Positions 4,300 to 12,729 of a stretch of 64,000 nucleotides of DNA are shown here, piece by piece. This DNA comes from Elusimicrobiota bacterium (lineage in GTDB: Bacteria > Elusimicrobiota > Endomicrobiia > Endomicrobiales > Endomicrobiaceae). The stretch spans positions 1 through 64,000 of the forward strand of contig JAFXOV010000020.1 in the NCBI GenBank assembly GCA_017528425.1. Direction: 5' to 3'. The position numbers and the translations under genes are program-made. A model generated the notes under the pieces. That model was not told the origin of the DNA and ran no database searches. It saw only the letters and a program-made list of their open reading frames with translations. The first letter of the stretch is position 1, and each line of letters starts with the position of its first letter.

Positions 4300-4318
4300 G
4301 CTTTATAAGGAGAACCTT

Positions 4319-4933
4319 ATGAAAAAAGTTTTTTTAAGTATTTTATTTTTAACATTAACCTTTGCAGGTTGCCAAAACAATCAACAAAACATTGAAGAAC
4401 AAAAAGTTGATTCGGTTACCATAACCGAAACAGATTCGTCAGAGCCTGAAACTGTTCAAAAAGAAACAAATTATTTCCCTGCCATCGACCGCTATCTGAC
4501 TAATTCTATTGGCAGCAAGTATACCAAAGGTGAACATTGCGTACCCATTCACAGCATAGTGAGAGTTGACGAGCGTGATGCCGAGGACATCAAGGTATGG
4601 GGCGATTTCTGGGTCTTCAACTACAATCTAGTGGGCGACACGTTGGAATGTGTCTCTGGCGGCAGTCATCCCGGATTATTACACATCCGACAGACTGAAA
4701 AGGGCTTCGAAGTGACTGCCTTCGACCAGGTAGAGGATGGCTCCAGATACTTGCCGACAGCTAAGAAAATCTTCGGTGATAAGTTCAATGCCTTTAAAAT
4801 CATCAATAGCGATGAGAAGAATCGCGAAAGATTGAGAGCAGAAGGGTTGGCGACTTATGTAAAAAAGCATAACATTGCAGCAACAAAATATAAAGATTAC
4901 GGCTGGCCCGAAAAACAGCTTCCTTTAGAATAG
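4319..4933 (+). CDS. Lipoprotein of unknown function, mosaic composition
   Basis: 204 residues with a lipoprotein signal peptide. Positively charged MKK is followed by a hydrophobic stretch and the lipobox FAGC at residues 16-19, so it should be anchored to a membrane by diacylglycerol. A low-complexity linker rich in Q, E and T runs to about residue 50. A compact domain follows, with KVWGDFWVFNYNLVGDTLEC, GGSHPGLLHI and AFDQVEDGS. The function is not recognised; the domain resembles small secreted proteins I associate with Bacteroidota. AGGAG precedes the ATG. Bases about 4470-4860 use GAC, ATC, CTG and GGC codons at a far higher rate than the neighbours, while the first 150 and last 70 bases are host-like. 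This suggests a transferred core fitted between native ends. Confidence 0.75.
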   Translation: MKKVFLSILFLTLTFAGCQNNQQNIEEQKVDSVTITETDSSEPETVQKETNYFPAIDRYLTNSIGSKYTKGEHCVPIHSIVRVDERDAEDIKVWGDFWVFNYNLVGDTLECVSGGSHPGLLHIRQTEKGFEVTAFDQVEDGSRYLPTAKKIFGDKFNAFKIINSDEKNRERLRAEGLATYVKKHNIAATKYKDYGWPEKQLPLE

Positions 4934-4999
4934 AAAAATTAAAATTTTCAACAGTTTTTTGTTTTGTCGTTAAAAGACCTTAAGATTTTTCTATAAAAT

Positions 5000-5698
5000 T
5001 TAACACTTAATTTTTTTATATTTATTCAATTCTTTTTCTAAAAATTTTGCAATTTGTACAGAAAGTTGTTTACAATAATCGACATACTCTGAGATTTCTT
5101 CTTTGGTAAAAGAAATCGTAGCATCTTGATGAATAATATTATTACGTTGGTATGTAATTCCATTAACAATATTTTTAAAATCAACAATTGTTATTTCTAC
5201 ACCACCATCTATTGTATTTTGTTTTTTGGTTATAGTAATCTTGTCCCAAATATTCTCAATCCCTATTTTCTCAAACAAAAAATTTATTTCGTCTTCCCCA
5301 TGATTTCCATAATTAAATTTTGTTTCTATGTTTATTTGTGTAGGGCCAATATTTTGCCATAAATTAGATAGTTGTTTCATATACTCAATACTTTCAGATT
5401 TTTTATGTGGATGACAAGAGACATCATAAAAAGATTTAAAAAGTTGTTTAGAGTATCCTAATTTGATTTCATCTGAAATTTGTTCTAGTTTCAATTCTTT
5501 ATTAATAAAAGAAATATATTCACTGGAAATATCTTCTAAAAAAACTTCAAGTTTAATTGTCAATAAAATTAAAGCTGATTTTAAAAAAACATTACTTGTA
5601 TCACGTTGTTTTTCTTCTTTTGCAGAATATTCTATTAGAATTAAAACTTCACGAAGAGCAAATTGAAACCGGTTTACACTTTCAAATATAATAGACAT
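5000..5698 (-). CDS. HEPN-like nuclease (MAE_28990/MAE_18760 type)
   Basis: 232 residues, mainly alpha-helical. The HEPN active-site pattern R-x4-H is present as RNNIIH at about residues 185-190, in a C-terminal helical bundle. The length and the position directly after a DUF262 gene fit the MAE_28990/MAE_18760 HEPN-like family. HEPN proteins are usually metal-independent RNases in defence and toxin-antitoxin systems. Its ATG overlaps the DUF262 stop by one base (TAATG) and has no separate SD, so the two are translationally coupled. It is the last gene of an operon with the RM gene. The target is unknown. I am confident of the motif and context, moderately so of the subfamily. Confidence 0.7.
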   Translation of the reverse strand: MSIIFESVNRFQFALREVLILIEYSAKEEKQRDTSNVFLKSALILLTIKLEVFLEDISSEYISFINKELKLEQISDEIKLGYSKQLFKSFYDVSCHPHKKSESIEYMKQLSNLWQNIGPTQINIETKFNYGNHGEDEINFLFEKIGIENIWDKITITKKQNTIDGGVEITIVDFKNIVNGITYQRNNIIHQDATISFTKEEISEYVDYCKQLSVQIAKFLEKELNKYKKIKC

Positions 5699-6873
5699 TA
5701 TTTACTCATTACTTCGTTCATTTTTTTAAACCATACAGAAAGTCTATACTCCAATTTTTTAGGTTCTGATGTTCCAACTGTTATAGCTTGTACAAAAGTT
5801 TTATCTTCGTTACTACATTCTTTTAAAATATTCAATATCTCTGCTTTTTTTGAGAGGAGCACTTTTAAATCAAACTTTTCAAAACTAAGCATCATAAAAT
5901 CATATATTGCTTTATTTACATAAGGAAGGAATTTTCCGTTAGAATCAATACGTCTAAAAGAATCCTCTCCAAAAAGAGCGTATACTCTGTTTAATGTAGT
6001 ATTAAACTTCTTTCTTAATATATCGATTTCTTCTTTAGATAGTTCTTTATGTTTTTCCATATATGAATTGAGAAATGTTTTCATAATACCAGTATATTCA
6101 GTAATAAAAACATTATCTCCATTACAAAGACAACTTTTAGACAAAGCAAAATATCGAAGAATTAATTCTGCATCATCCATTCTTATGTGTGGCTCTGTTA
6201 ATTTTAATATCTTTAGTAATTGTTCATTATGCCTAAGTTCTTTTAATAAATCATTTAAAGTTCCTCTATATAAGCAATTTCTTAATTCTTGTTCTTTTAA
6301 TTTAACAGCTCCTCTATTTAAACGCATAAAAACATCATATTTCATTTCGGGGTGCGATTCTTTCGTAATTAGGACAATACGTAAAAGTCCATTATTTAAA
6401 ATATTTTTTGCATTAGAATTTAACTCATTATAATTTTGTTTATTTAGTTCTTTTAAAGAATCTAACCCTCTTAATTTAAATTTGTTTTCATAAAAATTTT
6501 TAAAACTAGTTAATCTTTGTAAACCATCAATAATATTCCACGTTCCATCATCTTCTTCTGCAACATATATTGGAGGAATTGGCACATTTAACAATACAGA
6601 TTCTATTAATTGAGATGATGTTTTATAATCCCATATTTGAGAACCTCGTTGAAAATCCGGTTCTAAAAATATTCGATTATTTTTTATCATATTCACTGTA
6701 TCTTCAACACTTTTATCATAGGCCTGTGTTCTTATTTTTCTTAATTCCTTTGGTATTTTAATACTATCTTCATAATCATTACTATATTCGTAGTCTTTTG
6801 TTTGCTTACCAAAAATTTGTTCATCATTATTTTTTTGTTCACTTTCTCTTTCAATTTCTAAATCTTTTTCCAT
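5698..6873 (-). CDS. DUF262 domain protein (GmrS-like, ParB/Srx-fold NTPase)
   Basis: 391 residues. The DUF262 signature is clear: a W-x-x-x-x-SSQLIESVLLNVPIPPIY segment near residues 80-105 and IIDGLQRLTSF near 113-123, where the DGxQR residues form the nucleotide-binding/hydrolysis site in the ParB/sulfiredoxin-like fold. It is the GmrS half of GmrSD type IV restriction systems. I see no DUF1524 HNH nuclease domain in the C-terminal half, so cleavage would have to come from a partner, most likely the coupled HEPN gene. The first 45 residues are highly charged and probably disordered. It lies 24 bp after the RM gene on the same strand. Confidence 0.85.
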   Translation of the reverse strand: MEKDLEIERESEQKNNDEQIFGKQTKDYEYSNDYEDSIKIPKELRKIRTQAYDKSVEDTVNMIKNNRIFLEPDFQRGSQIWDYKTSSQLIESVLLNVPIPPIYVAEEDDGTWNIIDGLQRLTSFKNFYENKFKLRGLDSLKELNKQNYNELNSNAKNILNNGLLRIVLITKESHPEMKYDVFMRLNRGAVKLKEQELRNCLYRGTLNDLLKELRHNEQLLKILKLTEPHIRMDDAELILRYFALSKSCLCNGDNVFITEYTGIMKTFLNSYMEKHKELSKEEIDILRKKFNTTLNRVYALFGEDSFRRIDSNGKFLPYVNKAIYDFMMLSFEKFDLKVLLSKKAEILNILKECSNEDKTFVQAITVGTSEPKKLEYRLSVWFKKMNEVMSK

Positions 6874-6897
6874 ATTATCAACCTCTTAAATATATAT

Positions 6898-9800
6898 TCA
6901 TCCTTTCAAATACTTATCTAAAATTTTTTGTTTTTCAAGTTTAGAATTATCAATTATTTTTTGAGTTTCATTTATCTGATTTTTAAATTTTTCAATTTGA
7001 GAAACGATTTTTTGTTGTTCTTGTAATGATGGAATATTAACTTCAATATTATATGCTGTGTTACGATTTAATCCTCCAGGTCCCAAACCTGTATTTAGTT
7101 TTTCTAGATTTGCTCTTTTTAACATATAATAACAAAACTTAAAATCAATTATGTCGCTATTTATCTTTACATAGAAACAAGTATCTATAGGAGTACAATT
7201 TTCTTCTACCAAATTAATTTTGCCAACAGAACCTTTTCTTCCAACAATAATATTTGGAGCTTTTAGCATATATTCATTATGATAACCATCTATCCCATTT
7301 GAGCCAACTACAGGATAAATTCCGTTTATCCTATTTGCTTTTGGTAAAGATTTTCCATATTCTAATGTTAAAACTTGCCCAATTTTATATTTTTTAGTTT
7401 TAGATATAGAATCAAATATATTGTCAATATTATTTTTTAATTTTTCTATTTTCTCTTTGTCTTTGTTATTTTGTTTTTCTATTTTTTCTATTTCGTTAAT
7501 AATTTTTTGTTGAGTTTCTATTGGTGGTAATGGAATTTGTATACTGTTTAAATTATATTGATTTAATTTAGGAACATTTTGTCCTGTTATATAAGAGGAT
7601 AAATCATATTTATTTAAGATTTCAATTAAATACTTATCTAAAATTTTATTTCTGTTTGGTCTTAAAACATGTGCATGATTATTAACCCAAGTTTTTCCAC
7701 TTATTTGAAATGCAGATTTTTCATTTGCACCCCATTTCGCACCATCTTCTCCAATTAATACTAATTTTTCGTTAAATATATATTCATCAACATAATCTAT
7801 TATACCTGTTGCCCCATAATAAGGTATTTTACCTGATACTCTTTCATTTTTACTTAAAGGAATTCTCTTGCTATCTAAATTTTCAACAAGTTCACCAAGT
7901 TTATGGATCTCAAATTTACTATCTATATTTACTTTTTTTTTAAAACTTAAATTGATATTTTTTTCAAAATCAAACCTATCAAATATCATCATATCAATCA
8001 AATTATTTCTTGAAACATTTTCTTTTAAACTTTCATCTATTTCAGTTTCAAAATCGCCATTGAAAGCTTTGTAAATATATGTGCTTGCTTTTTTAGGATT
8101 ATCAAATGATTTCGCATCAAACAATCTCGTGCATTCATCAATATTTTTACCTTTTTGTATTGAATGAATTCCTTCGTATCCTCTACGATTTGAAAATTCA
8201 TAACCTAAAAATTGTTTTTCTTTATCTTTTTCACCTGTTCTTATAATAACAACTTTTTGATTACAAGTTAAAATAAAATAATAAATTTTTTCTTTTTCGA
8301 GCTCTATTATTTTATTAAAAAAGTCTTTTTCATCTTTGAATTTTATTTTTTGCGAATATTCTTTAAATAAATCATGTTTTTTTACTTTTTCATTTGGCTT
8401 TTGTTTTAATAGAGATATATAATCATTAAAACTCAAATTTTTCCATACATAATTTATATATTTCGTAATTGGTTTTTCTATATTAATAATTGTTACATCT
8501 ATATAATTTGTAAAAAATTTATTAACAGCTTCTTGTAAATTTATAGATTCATTATTATTTCTTCTTCTTAAAAATAAAACAACAGTATTTGTTCCTGTTG
8601 CCATAAATGTATTTGAACCAAGTTCAGTTATTGCGATAATTTCAAAATATTTTAACAATAATTCTCTTGTTTTTGTATAAATACCAGAATTGGTTAAAAT
8701 AGAGCTTGGTAAAATTATTCCTGCAATACCACCATCTTTTAAAAGTTGTTTTGTTCTTTCTACAAATAAACATTCTATTTCAGAACTTCTATCAGTTAAA
8801 TATTTATATAGTTCAAATTCTTTATTTACATTTATATTTTTAATATCACCTTTAAATGCATCTACTGAATATGGCGGATTAGATACAACAATAGCAAACT
8901 TTGCTTTTGATGAATCTTCAATTTTTATATTTTCAGACAATAATCCTACATAGTTTTTTGAATATTTAAAACTATCCAATCCATCACCATGTATAACTTG
9001 TGCCAAACCATCACCATAAAAATAACATCCTACTTTTGCGACTTTTACAAGTCTATAATCTTTTTCTATACCATAAATATATTTCCCTGCCCAAGAATAA
9101 GGATTTGTTTTCCAAGTATCAACCATTGTTTTAGCTTCCGGATAAAAATTGTTTGTGTTCAATTCATTGATACAATCTTGATAAGCTTCCATCATTTCTG
9201 TAATAAAATGACCACTACCAGCTGCATAATCAATAACTGCAGGTAATTTAGGAACCGGCTGATTAATAGATTCCGTAAGCATTTTATCAAGAGGCAAAGA
9301 TTTTGTTATAAATTTTGTAATTGGAGGAGGTGTAAAAAACTGTCCGGCTTCTTGTTTTAATCCAGTTGTTAATAATCTTTCAAAAAAATCACTTAAATGT
9401 TGTTGTTTTCTAGGATATCTTATTTTATATTTTTCTAAAAGTTGAACCACTTCTTTTAATACTCTAAAATTATCATCAAAAGACTCATCGTCAATAACAT
9501 CTTTTATATCAAATACTTTATTAAATTTTAACAATTTCTTTTTTTTCTCTAATAACTCTTGTTCATTTTCATATTTAAAATCATTATCAGAAATACCTTC
9601 TATTTCTTTTTTTAAAAATTCATATAATCCAGCTTTATGCAAATTATAAAGTCTAACTTCAAAATCTACAGGATTATCTTTTTCCTCTAACCATTGAAAT
9701 TCTAATTCATCGTCTTTTCTTTTTCTTTCATCATATATTTTTGCTAAAAACAAATTGAAAATTTTATTAAATGCATTTGGTTTATCTGATACAGAATGCT

Positions 9801-10518
9801 TTCTTAATATCGACAAAAAACCATGAAAAATTTTACCACTATTTTCTTCTGTTAGTTCTATTAAATCAGATTTGGTTAATGGTTTATTTTTATAGCAATA
9901 TATATTAACCCATTTATCGAAAATTCCATTAGAATAAGTTTGTTTATTCCAACGTTCATATGTATCAACAACATTTCCTGCCTGTCTATAATATTCCTCA
10001 ACTTTTATAATTTCATTTTTATAGTCAATTTTTTTATTATCTAGCCTAGATGCATATAACATCAAATATTCGGCATATTTATCGTTTTGAAAATATGTTA
10101 ATAATTGTCCACCGTTTTTTTGTATATTAGAAAATTCGTCATTAAATTCTTTACCCCAAGTTTTACATTCTATCATTAAAAAAGCTTTTGTATTTTTTAT
10201 AACTAAAATGTCTAATATTCCTGAATGACCATGCCCTGATGGATAAGATTTCTCTAATATTATATTTTGAGGTTTATATCCTTTTTCTAAAAGTCTATCT
10301 ACACATTCTAATACCACAAAATTTTCATTTTTTGAAAAATTTTGAGTTGTTTTAGTATCAAATGTAATTAATGTTCCATAATCTATTTTTTCTTTTGAAA
10401 AATCAATATTGATTATATAACTATTATGATTTTTATATTGTTTATAATAAATATCTGTTGTTCCGTTTTTAGGAGAGAAACCTATTGCTTTTATTAATTC
10501 TTTATAATTTGTTTTCAT
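6898..10518 (-). CDS. Single-chain restriction-modification-specificity enzyme (type IIG/I-like)
   Basis: 1206 residues. Domains in order: an N-terminal PD-(D/E)xK nuclease (GILDILVI at about 103 and IECKTWG at about 116-122); a helical linker; an N6-adenine methyltransferase with GQFFTPPPI (about 390), the SAM motif DYAAGSGHF (about 429) and catalytic NPPY (about 547); then two HsdS-type target recognition domains. TRD1 starts near 866 (HKLGELVENLDSKRIPL) and TRD2 near 1038 (YKIGQVLTLEYGKSLPK), each followed by a coiled-coil spacer (for example LPPIETQQKIINEIEKIEKQ). One protein could therefore recognise a bipartite site, methylate it and cut. No SD is visible before the ATG, which sits in an AT-only leader. 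It heads an operon with DUF262 and HEPN. Confidence 0.9.
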   Translation of the reverse strand: MKTNYKELIKAIGFSPKNGTTDIYYKQYKNHNSYIINIDFSKEKIDYGTLITFDTKTTQNFSKNENFVVLECVDRLLEKGYKPQNIILEKSYPSGHGHSGILDILVIKNTKAFLMIECKTWGKEFNDEFSNIQKNGGQLLTYFQNDKYAEYLMLYASRLDNKKIDYKNEIIKVEEYYRQAGNVVDTYERWNKQTYSNGIFDKWVNIYCYKNKPLTKSDLIELTEENSGKIFHGFLSILRKHSVSDKPNAFNKIFNLFLAKIYDERKRKDDELEFQWLEEKDNPVDFEVRLYNLHKAGLYEFLKKEIEGISDNDFKYENEQELLEKKKKLLKFNKVFDIKDVIDDESFDDNFRVLKEVVQLLEKYKIRYPRKQQHLSDFFERLLTTGLKQEAGQFFTPPPITKFITKSLPLDKMLTESINQPVPKLPAVIDYAAGSGHFITEMMEAYQDCINELNTNNFYPEAKTMVDTWKTNPYSWAGKYIYGIEKDYRLVKVAKVGCYFYGDGLAQVIHGDGLDSFKYSKNYVGLLSENIKIEDSSKAKFAIVVSNPPYSVDAFKGDIKNINVNKEFELYKYLTDRSSEIECLFVERTKQLLKDGGIAGIILPSSILTNSGIYTKTRELLLKYFEIIAITELGSNTFMATGTNTVVLFLRRRNNNESINLQEAVNKFFTNYIDVTIINIEKPITKYINYVWKNLSFNDYISLLKQKPNEKVKKHDLFKEYSQKIKFKDEKDFFNKIIELEKEKIYYFILTCNQKVVIIRTGEKDKEKQFLGYEFSNRRGYEGIHSIQKGKNIDECTRLFDAKSFDNPKKASTYIYKAFNGDFETEIDESLKENVSRNNLIDMMIFDRFDFEKNINLSFKKKVNIDSKFEIHKLGELVENLDSKRIPLSKNERVSGKIPYYGATGIIDYVDEYIFNEKLVLIGEDGAKWGANEKSAFQISGKTWVNNHAHVLRPNRNKILDKYLIEILNKYDLSSYITGQNVPKLNQYNLNSIQIPLPPIETQQKIINEIEKIEKQNNKDKEKIEKLKNNIDNIFDSISKTKKYKIGQVLTLEYGKSLPKANRINGIYPVVGSNGIDGYHNEYMLKAPNIIVGRKGSVGKINLVEENCTPIDTCFYVKINSDIIDFKFCYYMLKRANLEKLNTGLGPGGLNRNTAYNIEVNIPSLQEQQKIVSQIEKFKNQINETQKIIDNSKLEKQKILDKYLKG

Positions 10519-10941
10519 TTTTTATTTTTTATAAAAAATACAGTTAATATAAAAATATCACTTTTTTTCATGTGGTTAACAATTGATATTGTATATTCTA
10601 TTATTTTTTAACTTTTATTTCAAAATTTTATATTTTTTGTTTTTTATAATTATATCATACAAAAGTATATATGTCAAGTTATTATAATACAATATATTTT
10701 TCGTTGTCGTTAGATTTACAAGTTCAACTACATTATAGTCGTTTTGTTGCTTTCAAAGGATTTAAGATTTTAAATTAGAACGAAGCATTTTGCGACTACT
10801 TTGCCGTTGTTGTTAGATTTGCAAGTTTGTAAACGAAACGAAGTGTTTTCAAAATGAAGTGTACTAAAAAGATAGCGGAGCGAATGGGTACATGAGTTTT
10901 GAAAACACAAAGTTGCAGTTAGAAATTGCAAATCGCCATAA
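10519..10941. repeat. Intergenic region with degenerate copy of a palindromic repeat family
   Basis: There is no gene in these 423 bp. Two imperfect 23-bp direct repeats lie at 10702-10724 and 10805-10827 (CGTTGTCGTTAGATTTACAA against CGTTGTTGTTAGATTTGCAA at their starts). A 12-bp perfect inverted repeat lies at 10843-10854 (GTGTTTTCAAAA) and 10897-10908. The stretch 10745-10908 aligns loosely with the 145-bp repeats at 22818-22962 and 23983-24127: it shares TTTAAGATTTTAAATTA and a GTAC...GCG.A.GCGAA...GTACAT core. I call it a diverged third member. 10519-10690 is plain AT-rich sequence. Confidence 0.55.
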
Positions 10942-12729
10942 CTACTTGTCGATTTGCAGAACGGCCACAAACGCTTCCGGCGGCAGCTCCACCTTCCCGA
11001 ACTGTCTCATCTTCTTCTTTCCCTCTTTCTGTTTTTCGAGAAGTTTTCTCTTTCTGGTGATATCACCGCCATAACATTTTGCAAGAACATCTTTTCTCAT
11101 AGCAGATATTGTTTCTCTGGCTATAATCTTATTATTTATTCTTGCCTGAATTGGAATTTCAAACATGTGGCGGGGAATAATTCCTCTTAATTTTTCCGTT
11201 AAAAAGTGTGCGGCAGTTTGTGCTTTATCTTTATGAACGATTACTGAAAATGCGTCCACAACTTCACCGTTAACAAGTATTTCAAGTTTTACCAAATCAC
11301 CAAGCTGCGGAGCTATATGTTCATAATCGAACGATGCGTAACCTTTAGATACGGATTTGAGTGCATCGTAAAAACCTACAATAATTTCCGCTAACGGAAT
11401 TTCGTATTTTAAAATAGCAATTTTCATGTTAACATATTTCATGTCAACTTGTTTGCCTCTTTTCTTTTGACACAAATCCATTAGTCCGCCGAGATATTCG
11501 GTAGGAGAAACTATTGTTGCCATAACATACGGTTCCCAAATTTCCTGGATTTCCGCATTGTTAGGAAACTTTGCAGGATTATCTATTGTTACCATCTGAT
11601 TTTTTGTTTTTACATTATATATAACGTTAGGGGCGGTAACTAAAAGATTTAAACCGAACTCTCTTTCGAGTCTCTCTCTAACGATTTCCAAATGAAGATG
11701 TCCCAAAAATCCGCATCTGTAACCGAACCCCAAAGCAACGGAAGTTTCCGGAACATAAGTTAAAGATGCATCCGAAAGTTGCAATTTTTCAAGAGCAACT
11801 TTTAAACTGTCGTAATCGGATGTACTGTAAGGGTAAAGACCTGCAAATACGAACGGATTAACTTCTTTGTATCCTGCATGAGGATGAGTTGTCGGTCTTG
11901 AACTTTCGGTTATCGTGTCACCGATTTTTACGTCTTGTATTGTTTTGATACCTGCAACAACAAACCCTACTTCACCGGCGGAAAGGCTGTCTGATTCTAC
12001 AGGTTTTATTTTCATGTAACCTACTTCAAGAACTTCGTATTGAGCGCCTGAAGCCATAAAAGTTACTTTCATACCTTTTTTAATTGTTCCGTCGAACACT
12101 CTTATAATAATAACAACACCTTTATAAGAATCGTAGAAAGAATCGAATATCAAGGCAGATAACGGTTCTTCTTTTTTGCCTGTAGGTGCGGGGATATTTG
12201 CTATAACCGAATCTACTATTTCGTTTATACCGATACCTTCTTTTGCACTTGCAAGTATAGGTTGATCGATAACTTCCAAAGCGTCCGTCATTTGTTCATA
12301 AGCGGAATCTATATCGGCGGTAGGCAAATCTATTTTGTTTATTACCGGAATAATTTTTAAATTTGCATTTTTTGCAAGCATTGTGTTTGCAAGAGTTTGT
12401 GCTTCAACACCTTGTGACGCATCTATAACTAAAAGTGCACCTTCGCATGCTTCAAGTGCACGAGAAACTTCATAGGTAAAATCCACATGACCGGGGGTAT
12501 CTATAAGGTTTAAAATATATTCTTGACCGTCTTTATCTTTATACTGCATTTTAACGGCTTTAGCTTTTATTGTAATCCCTCTTTCTCTTTCAAGTTCCAT
12601 ACCGTCGAGAATTTGGTCTTTCATTTCTCTTTTGGAAATTGTTCCTGTATACTCCAATAATCTGTCGGCAAGTGTACTTTTACCGTGATCTATATGGGCG
12701 ATGATGCAAAAATTTCTAATGTTTTTCAA
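10942..12729 (-). CDS. lepA: Elongation factor 4 (LepA), ribosomal back-translocase GTPase
   Basis: 595 residues, normal for LepA. The G domain starts at once with [16 protein letters not shown] (P-loop), [12 protein letters not shown] (switch I), DTPGHVDF (G3) and NKIDLP (G4). It is followed by the beta-barrel, two EF-G-like domains and the LepA-specific C-terminal region with [33 protein letters not shown]. It acts on ribosomes during translation. The start is a TTG at 12729 with GGAG 7 nt upstream; no ATG exists closer that would keep the P-loop. It lies 29 bp downstream of the O-antigen ligase gene and is probably co-transcribed with it. Confidence 0.97.

Follow-up and report, generated by a model that had tools for sequence, protein, structure and literature searches.

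A PD-T4-2-like DUF262–HEPN gene pair behind a type IIG restriction-modification gene in an Elusimicrobiota genome: joined layers of defence or a single system?

Do the genes for a restriction-modification (RM) enzyme, a DUF262 protein and a HEPN protein that follow one another on a contig of an Elusimicrobiota gut bacterium form a single defence system, or do they join modules that can work apart? The genes lie in a stretch of 64,000 nucleotides (JAFXOV010000020.1, positions 1 to 64,000; assembly GCA_017528425.1), here called the window, where inspection of the open reading frames (ORFs) finds three complete ones exactly at 5000–10518, all on the minus strand. A first-pass annotation of this DNA had read them, in this order, as a nuclease-methyltransferase protein with two target-recognition domains (TRDs), a DUF262 protein and a coupled HEPN protein, and the Pfam and PADLOC domains of the intact ORFs agree, the nuclease match being weak. 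It had also suggested that such a coupled layout of RM and abortive defence might be undescribed. The explanation that we regard as moderately probable is a layered one: two modules joined in one transcript, a type IIG RM enzyme first and an autonomous pair second, the pair being related to the known system PD-T4-2 and combining a BrxU-like sensor with a HEPN RNase. Below, L numbers denote loci and G numbers genomes, the window genome (2.08 Mb) being G000.

The DUF262 and HEPN genes form a unit in their own right. A DUF262 profile made from five proteins yielded loci in species genomes, of which the best 80 of 255 confirmed ones were used, together with 21 in viral contigs; with L132 left out (DUF262 ORF below 200 aa), 100 independently found loci with a DUF262 ORF of at least 200 aa remained. 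A HEPN gene lies directly downstream in 78 of these 100, a recurrence that excludes chance as the source of the order, and the gap is at most 10 bp in 72 of the 78 pairs. Several of the 22 other loci are cut by contig ends. The protein distances of the two partners also co-vary (Mantel r 0.88, n = 86 loci, none of 1000 permutations as high). For these counts the HEPN and methyltransferase profiles were built iteratively from few seeds, and C5 enzymes were sought by motif only; L207, whose second gene is annotated as 'hypothetical' and no more, was not counted, nor was L025, a broken version of L026. The latter two are plasmid records of A. baumannii ATCC 17978 that carry the same pair, which in L025 is broken into several ORFs. 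Because the HEPN protein diverges fast, a tblastn search with the window protein in plasmids and phages, together with a viral scan, gave no match.

What might the two proteins do? The larger one matches GmrSD_N (DUF262) in Pfam at 5.8e-24, and Pfam finds no DUF1524 HNH domain in any of the three operon proteins, as the first-pass annotation had said of the DUF262 protein. Its structure model has a pLDDT of 85.2, the first 38 residues falling below 50. Foldseek ranks BrxU first at 3.3e-3, short of the 0.001 threshold, and VIA also ranks BrxU first, with a Z of 9.4 over 280 residues (aa 49–389) and an rmsd of 16.1 Å, which we interpret as two matching domains that are arranged differently. SspE and ParB are the next fold matches. 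This kinship, together with the missing DUF1524, suggests a sensor half that resembles a type IV restriction enzyme minus its nuclease, with the HEPN protein in the nuclease's place.

The smaller protein matches HEPN_RiboL-PSP (PF18735) at 1.1e-10, with 42.2 bits against a Pfam cut-off of 28.4. The R-x4-H motif that had been noticed from the sequence is R185-NNII-H190; both residues are kept in 86 of 87 aligned HEPN proteins, the sole exception being a fragment (the HEPN of L170 is a fragment). The structure model is confident (pLDDT 95.2). Foldseek returned nothing significant for it, with HEPN rows only from rank 12, and the top seven rows of VIA are all HEPN toxins, at Z values of 10.0 to 8.4 over 119–134 aligned residues that, for helical bundles, should be read with care. 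The predicted model and the motif together give the HEPN fold and the R-x4-6-H signature of a HEPN RNase, so that the effector, which the first-pass annotation had thought might be an RNase, is most likely that rather than an HNH DNase. Cleavage of DNA by the pair in the manner of GmrSD was considered and rejected, there being no DUF1524.

By its predicted domain content the pair is the known anti-T4 pair PD-T4-2, an E. coli ECOR65 system (Vassallo et al. 2022) that consists of a DUF262 protein and a PF18735 HEPN (table in PMC10952713) and whose deletion from the native strain raised T4 plaquing (PMC9519451). The window DUF262 protein matches PD-T4-2_A (2.2e-45, 153 bits, aa 52–379) and a PF18735 HEPN adjoins as second gene. 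However, the window HEPN matches no PADLOC family at E ≤ 1, PD-T4-2_B included, and we therefore call the pair PD-T4-2-like. In the window operon the pair follows an RM gene, whereas none is mentioned for PD-T4-2 in the available text of PMC10952713 and PMC9519451; our literature search found no published mechanism for PD-T4-2-like pairs. That pairs of this kind were known had been allowed for from the start, and a 2013 HEPN survey already has the entry 'Ribo L-PSP-HEPN ... operon with ParB' (PMC3710099). The same survey makes 'undescribed' too strong a word for the wider arrangement: its Table 1 lists MAE_28990 HEPN genes 'in operon with a ParB nuclease and DNA methylase genes', the same three ingredients and the nearest printed notice that we found (PMC3710099). 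The differences are that the MAE_28990 HEPN is a neighbouring family to the RiboL-PSP type of the window, and that RM types and gene order go unmentioned in the available text of the survey. As far as our searches show, we are thus dealing with a known pair in a recurrent but unstudied setting.

Other systems resemble the pair in part. The DUF262 protein scores best with the NsnA model (4.5e-89, 297 bits, aa 12–389), NsnA, NsnB and NsnC being the genes of Menshen. Menshen itself was rejected, since neither NsnC nor an AAA/DUF3696 gene (the NsnB ATPase) lies alongside and the neighbours are HEPN and RM genes (compare L027). The type IV enzymes GmrSD and BrxU share the DUF262 domain with its D-G-x-Q-R motif; in the window there is no DUF1524 HNH in cis or in the next gene, and a separate HEPN protein takes its place. 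PrrI-PrrC and PARIS, which guard RM enzymes, also place a latent abortive module after an RM gene, but the fusion of an ABC ATPase to HEPN inside a type I RM locus that defines the PrrC type is missing from the window, and the window's kind of pair is mostly found without RM.

The first gene appears to be a complete type IIG enzyme. Pfam gives N6_Mtase (PF02384) at 1.8e-24 and two Methylase_S (TRD) matches, so that an N6 methyltransferase and TRDs stand on a single chain, and PADLOC gives REase_MTase_IIG with 802 bits. The best solved relative is RM.BsaXI (PDB 8w0p; E 2.9e-39, aa 43–698), a type IIB/IIG enzyme that shares the nuclease-methyltransferase chain; two TRDs in that same chain are the window enzyme's own feature. 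Both methyltransferase motifs, I (AAGSGHF) and IV (NPPY), are intact, and two homologues share them. The N-terminal nuclease of the window protein gives a weak signal (HSDR_N_2 at E 0.01, below the cut-off). In the homologue from the sister species this region reaches 6.7e-7, and all three aligned enzymes (window, G003 and L044) have the D...E-x-K residues. The names PD-(D/E)xK and Vsr and those of the methyltransferase motifs are used here in their general sense. Remnants of the same IIG gene, with stop codons, also survive as a decayed copy in another genome (G022:C46 2912–3551, L021), behind a gene that by eye looks like gyrA.

The spacing of the three genes is tight: 24 bp separate the RM gene from the DUF262 gene, whose stop codon is overlapped by one base by the HEPN ATG. 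A promoter-like site upstream of the RM gene matches the consensus at 12 of 12 positions, in a scan that gave 48 such sites against a mean of 47.7 in shuffled sequence, i.e. no excess, and a comparable site precedes the RM gene of the sister species G003. A sequence scan found no terminator-like site on the minus strand within the operon. The promoter-like site before the first gene and the lack of a coding-strand terminator-like site between the genes make one transcript likely, in which the RM gene and the pair would be transcribed together. In the spacer of the promoter-like site a short dyad, ATAC-TTTT-GTAT, is kept by eye in both species (window, and L019 upstream of the RM gene), and is possibly an operator.

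Does sharing an operon make the three genes one system? The comparison of related genomes does not support this: the RM gene and the pair are separable modules, since in a sister species a related RM gene stands at the same site with a different partner, and in a third species the site is empty. The site is the 3' side of lepA, which carries the RM gene and the pair in G000, an RM gene and an ATPase in G003, a T5orf172 gene in G001 and nothing in G008. The G003 RM homologue is 62% identical over the first 867 aa and 50% over the whole chain, and DNA similarity to the window ends inside the RM gene near the TRD region, resuming at 4989, 11 bp past the HEPN stop. In place of the DUF262 and HEPN genes, G003 has a 630-aa ATPase gene 35 bp after the RM gene; its product contains AAA_21, matches PtuA models best (3.3e-34) and AriA, a PARIS gene, less well (1.2e-17), and at its C-terminus matches an RT-Toprim model. 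The site is thus a hot spot in which the second layer is swapped, and in the genus at large (L019, L158, L159, L160 and L166 besides the window) it holds RM+DUF262+HEPN, RM+ATPase, T5orf172, other genes or nothing.

The distribution of the pair agrees. The window DUF262 gene occurs in 1 of 83 genomes of the order and the HEPN gene in 1 of 99 relatives, which rules out a three-gene system conserved within the lineage. The nearest named DUF262 relative among the matches listed, from a Candidatus Gastranaerophilales metagenome-assembled genome (71%), has no RM gene upstream of its pair; downstream of that pair (L032 8914–16240) we noted fragmented helicase and methyltransferase genes, which may be a further RM-like system. 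In our survey no RM or methyltransferase gene was detected in the adjoining slot of 73 of the 78 pairs. The first-pass annotation had itself named the regular occurrence of DUF262–HEPN without the RM gene as evidence against its proposal; because the pair mostly occurs in this way and was already known, that evidence is now largely in hand, and a single system of three genes is not supported.

The same annotation had asked for neighbourhood statistics, and here part of its proposal survives. We define the upstream slot as a co-oriented ORF of at least 150 aa within 150 bp upstream, and find it occupied in 16 of the 78 pairs. RM or methyltransferase genes hold 5 of these 16 slots and account for 21 of the 693 remaining flank ORFs (Fisher p 1.5e-4, in a test where genes of one operon are not independent), and are thus over-represented directly upstream. 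Five of 78 is a floor, since loci of the window's phylum show C5 systems that a motif-only search can miss. The five pairs are L037, with a type I system in the order R-M-S; L044, with a methyltransferase carrying HSDR_N_2 and a specificity gene; L079; L105; and L125. In L044 the split IIG RM genes and the pair stand behind a Fic/DOC gene with an HTH domain (514–1458), and on a Lactobacillus gasseri plasmid a related RM gene likewise follows a Fic gene. The tendency to lie behind RM genes extends beyond HEPN pairs: at the 22 loci without HEPN, RM or methyltransferase genes make up 2 of 8 ORFs in the upstream slot and 8 of 199 other flank ORFs (p 0.05). DUF262 genes without HEPN lie 9–13 bp behind HsdR-like genes in L054 (4935–9302) and L078 (637–5137), which points to a docking of DUF262 to RM operons that is wider than the pair.

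Pfam matches among 38 upstream-chain proteins from 24 loci include N6_N4_Mtase (4), N6_Mtase (2) and Methylase_S (2), and those among 22 downstream-chain proteins from 15 loci include none of these three, no DNA methyltransferase family and one Mrr-type nuclease (25 of 26 families listed). In the phylum 13 of 284 genomes match, and RM genes lie directly upstream in 4 of the 12 loci besides the window: an XhoI-type nuclease and a methyltransferase in L193; Vsr, a C5 methyltransferase and a REase_II match in L194; and C5 methyltransferases, judged from sequence, in L023 and L198. In L194 and L198 Pfam identifies the third gene as a HEPN, and in L193 and L023 it is HEPN-like by motif only; L180, L181 and L183, phylum loci with a profile-detected HEPN, gave no RM profile match in the stretch examined. 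Among 12 plasmid pairs fetched through DUF262, a set of genes that includes a methyltransferase lies upstream in L024 and L174, and an RM pair in reverse orientation lies downstream in L205, the others being without RM upstream. At ten Menshen-like plasmid loci no methyltransferase is annotated directly upstream, one having helicase and DUF1837 genes there. Some upstream proteins of L024, L174, L105 and L198 look nuclease-like by motif or position and gave no profile match, and two large upstream ORFs of L035, suggested as RM genes by their size, were rejected from their sequence. The RM types found upstream are diverse (IIG, type I, XhoI type, C5 with Vsr). On a DUF262 tree of 112 rows, of the quick kind and with long branches at L031 and L168, the nine methyltransferase-linked rows need 7 changes, which argues for repeated gain or loss of the link and not for one origin.

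In three loci with the order methyltransferase–DUF262–HEPN the methyltransferase gene abuts DUF262 and no nuclease was recognised within the stretch examined: L079 of Pyxidicoccus fallax (−4 bp), L168 of Roseomonas mucosa (2 bp) and L125, a viral contig (21 bp). L168 was fetched through its methyltransferase and was therefore left out of the unbiased counts. Among 72,556 records searched at E 1e-15 the L079 methyltransferase matches only three Roseomonas plasmids, all three with an adjoining DUF262 hit; it gave no match in viral contigs, where the DUF262 proteins of L079 and L125 found only the same contig again. Related methyltransferases in Tabrizicola (L174) and Siccirubricoccus (L105) have a neighbour that by eye is PD...ExK-like.

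How, then, would a layered defence work? The RM enzyme would act first, marking host DNA and cutting unmarked phage DNA. The DUF262 protein may bind a nucleoside triphosphate (NTP), detect some sign of infection and pass the signal to the separate HEPN protein, which would cut RNA and halt the infection, probably sacrificing the cell. The lack of an RM gene beside most pairs means that the sensor has to work by itself, and the RM gene would not be needed for sensing. The position behind RM genes may reflect that the pair catches what these let through, for example phages that carry modified DNA or overcome restriction, much as BREX and BrxU are a published case of complementary layers (PMC8565348). 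Its relatives BrxU and SspE read DNA modification (PMC10952713), and by this kinship modified phage DNA is the first suspect as trigger. The docking behind RM and methyltransferase genes is in this sense a testable hint at what PD-T4-2-like pairs respond to, either the modification state of DNA or the failure of restriction. Several observations weigh against the layered explanation as stated. The DUF262 protein scores higher with NsnA (297 bits) than with PD-T4-2_A (153 bits), and PD-T4-2_B misses the HEPN protein; the operon claim rests on gene spacing and an absent terminator match; wholly independent modules would need no selection for the upstream position, which is nevertheless enriched; and independence does not explain the loci in which the methyltransferase has no recognised nuclease.

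The enrichment would be expected if the pair guarded the RM enzyme, staying silent while the enzyme works and being released when a phage protein blocks it. PrrC and PARIS are published guards of this kind (PMC12707154), the 2013 survey proposed such a role for HEPN–RM neighbours in general (PMC3710099), the pair recurs directly behind RM genes of many types, and in G003 the same slot holds the ATPase with matches to PtuA and AriA. We consider a guard unlikely, since most pairs have no adjoining RM gene and cannot in general guard a linked one, and since the RM types involved have no subunit in common that would be an obvious target for one sensor. The three loci without a recognised nuclease, the adjoining DUF262 hits of the L079 methyltransferase relatives and the fold kinship with the modification readers BrxU and SspE would fit a single three-gene system in which the methyltransferase marks self DNA, DUF262 reads the methylation and HEPN fires on unmarked or wrongly marked DNA, in effect restriction whose output is the cutting of RNA. 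This is quite improbable: the window enzyme probably has a nuclease of its own, the adjoining slot of most pairs holds no methyltransferase, and those that are linked belong to unrelated classes, the link needing 7 changes among nine rows of the tree. In a bolder variant, which we hold to be unlikely, evolution has joined DUF262–HEPN again and again to DNA methyltransferases as a portable output stage that cuts RNA. Its fullest form would be found in L079, L168 and L125, where DUF262 would read the methylation mark and HEPN would replace the restriction enzyme, so that self and non-self are told apart on DNA and the effector is an RNase; the window operon would be an intermediate with the RM nuclease still present.

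Many pairs are plasmid-borne and some adjoin toxin-antitoxin genes, and the nearest HEPN folds are toxins of toxin-antitoxin pairs, which would suit an addiction module with HEPN as toxin, DUF262 as antitoxin and phage defence as a by-product. We find this very unlikely given that the DUF262 protein exceeds its partner in size and retains an NTPase pocket, and that PD-T4-2 was found as a phage-defence system, its deletion raising T4 plaquing (PMC9519451). A pair and an RM gene that merely share an insertion hot spot, with no functional link, would be in keeping with the differing cargo of the lepA 3' site in sister genomes and with the clustering of defence genes in islands. The chance of this seems remote, as the enrichment is specific to the adjoining co-oriented upstream slot, not to the vicinity, and the downstream chains contributed only the Mrr-type match. 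The loci of Pyxidicoccus and Roseomonas in which no nuclease was recognised are small enough for a direct test of whether a methyl mark can license an RNase. A positive outcome would mean that restriction-modification can do without a DNA-cutting enzyme; with a negative one, the present result would still show bacteria stacking independent layers in one transcript and swapping the second layer at a fixed site. The features of the window on which this account draws are collected in Table 1.

Table 1. Coordinates of the operon and its features in the window.
Feature	Position	Strand	Basis
Type IIG (BsaXI-like) RM enzyme, 1206 aa: nuclease, N6-adenine methyltransferase and two TRDs, single chain	6898..10518	-	REase_MTase_IIG 802 bits; RM.BsaXI (PDB 8w0p); motifs
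Nuclease motif region of RM protein, aa 94-125, ILDILV...MIECK, D...ExK	10144..10239	-	Weak HSDR_N_2, E 0.01; residues kept in G003 and L044 homologues
N6 methyltransferase domain of RM protein, aa 373-731	8326..9402	-	PF02384 1.8e-24; AAGSGHF, NPPYS
First TRD (Methylase_S), aa 867-1028	7435..7920	-	Pfam
Second TRD, ~aa 1040-1204	6907..7401	-	Specificity_I 1040-1204; two Methylase_S stretches in Pfam
DUF262 (GmrSD_N) protein, 391 aa: predicted ParB/Srx-type NTPase sensor, BrxU-like without DUF1524 nuclease	5698..6873	-	Pfam, PADLOC, predicted fold
D-G-L-Q-R nucleotide-pocket motif of DUF262, aa 116-120	6514..6528	-	D116, G117, Q119, R120 invariant in 32 sequences
HEPN (RiboL-PSP type) protein, 232 aa: predicted RNase effector	5000..5698	-	Pfam, predicted fold
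HEPN catalytic motif R185-N-N-I-I-H190	5129..5146	-	R and H in 86/87 aligned HEPNs
Promoter-like site TTGACA-17-TATAAT, TG before -10 hexamer, likely operon start	10649..10677	-	Consensus 12/12
Island present in window, missing at same site in sister species G008	4990..10742		Flanks 4305-4989 and 10743-12729 lie 65 bp apart in L159

Outside the operon, an Rfam search over 20 kb gave a single tRNA and nothing else. No clear CRISPR array or effector gene was found in the 482 bases before the Cas1 and Cas2 genes, nor convincing CRISPR-like repeats; these two genes themselves are found at the edge of the contig (483–2026, minus strand), and the Cas1 is extended at its N-terminus by about 58 residues.

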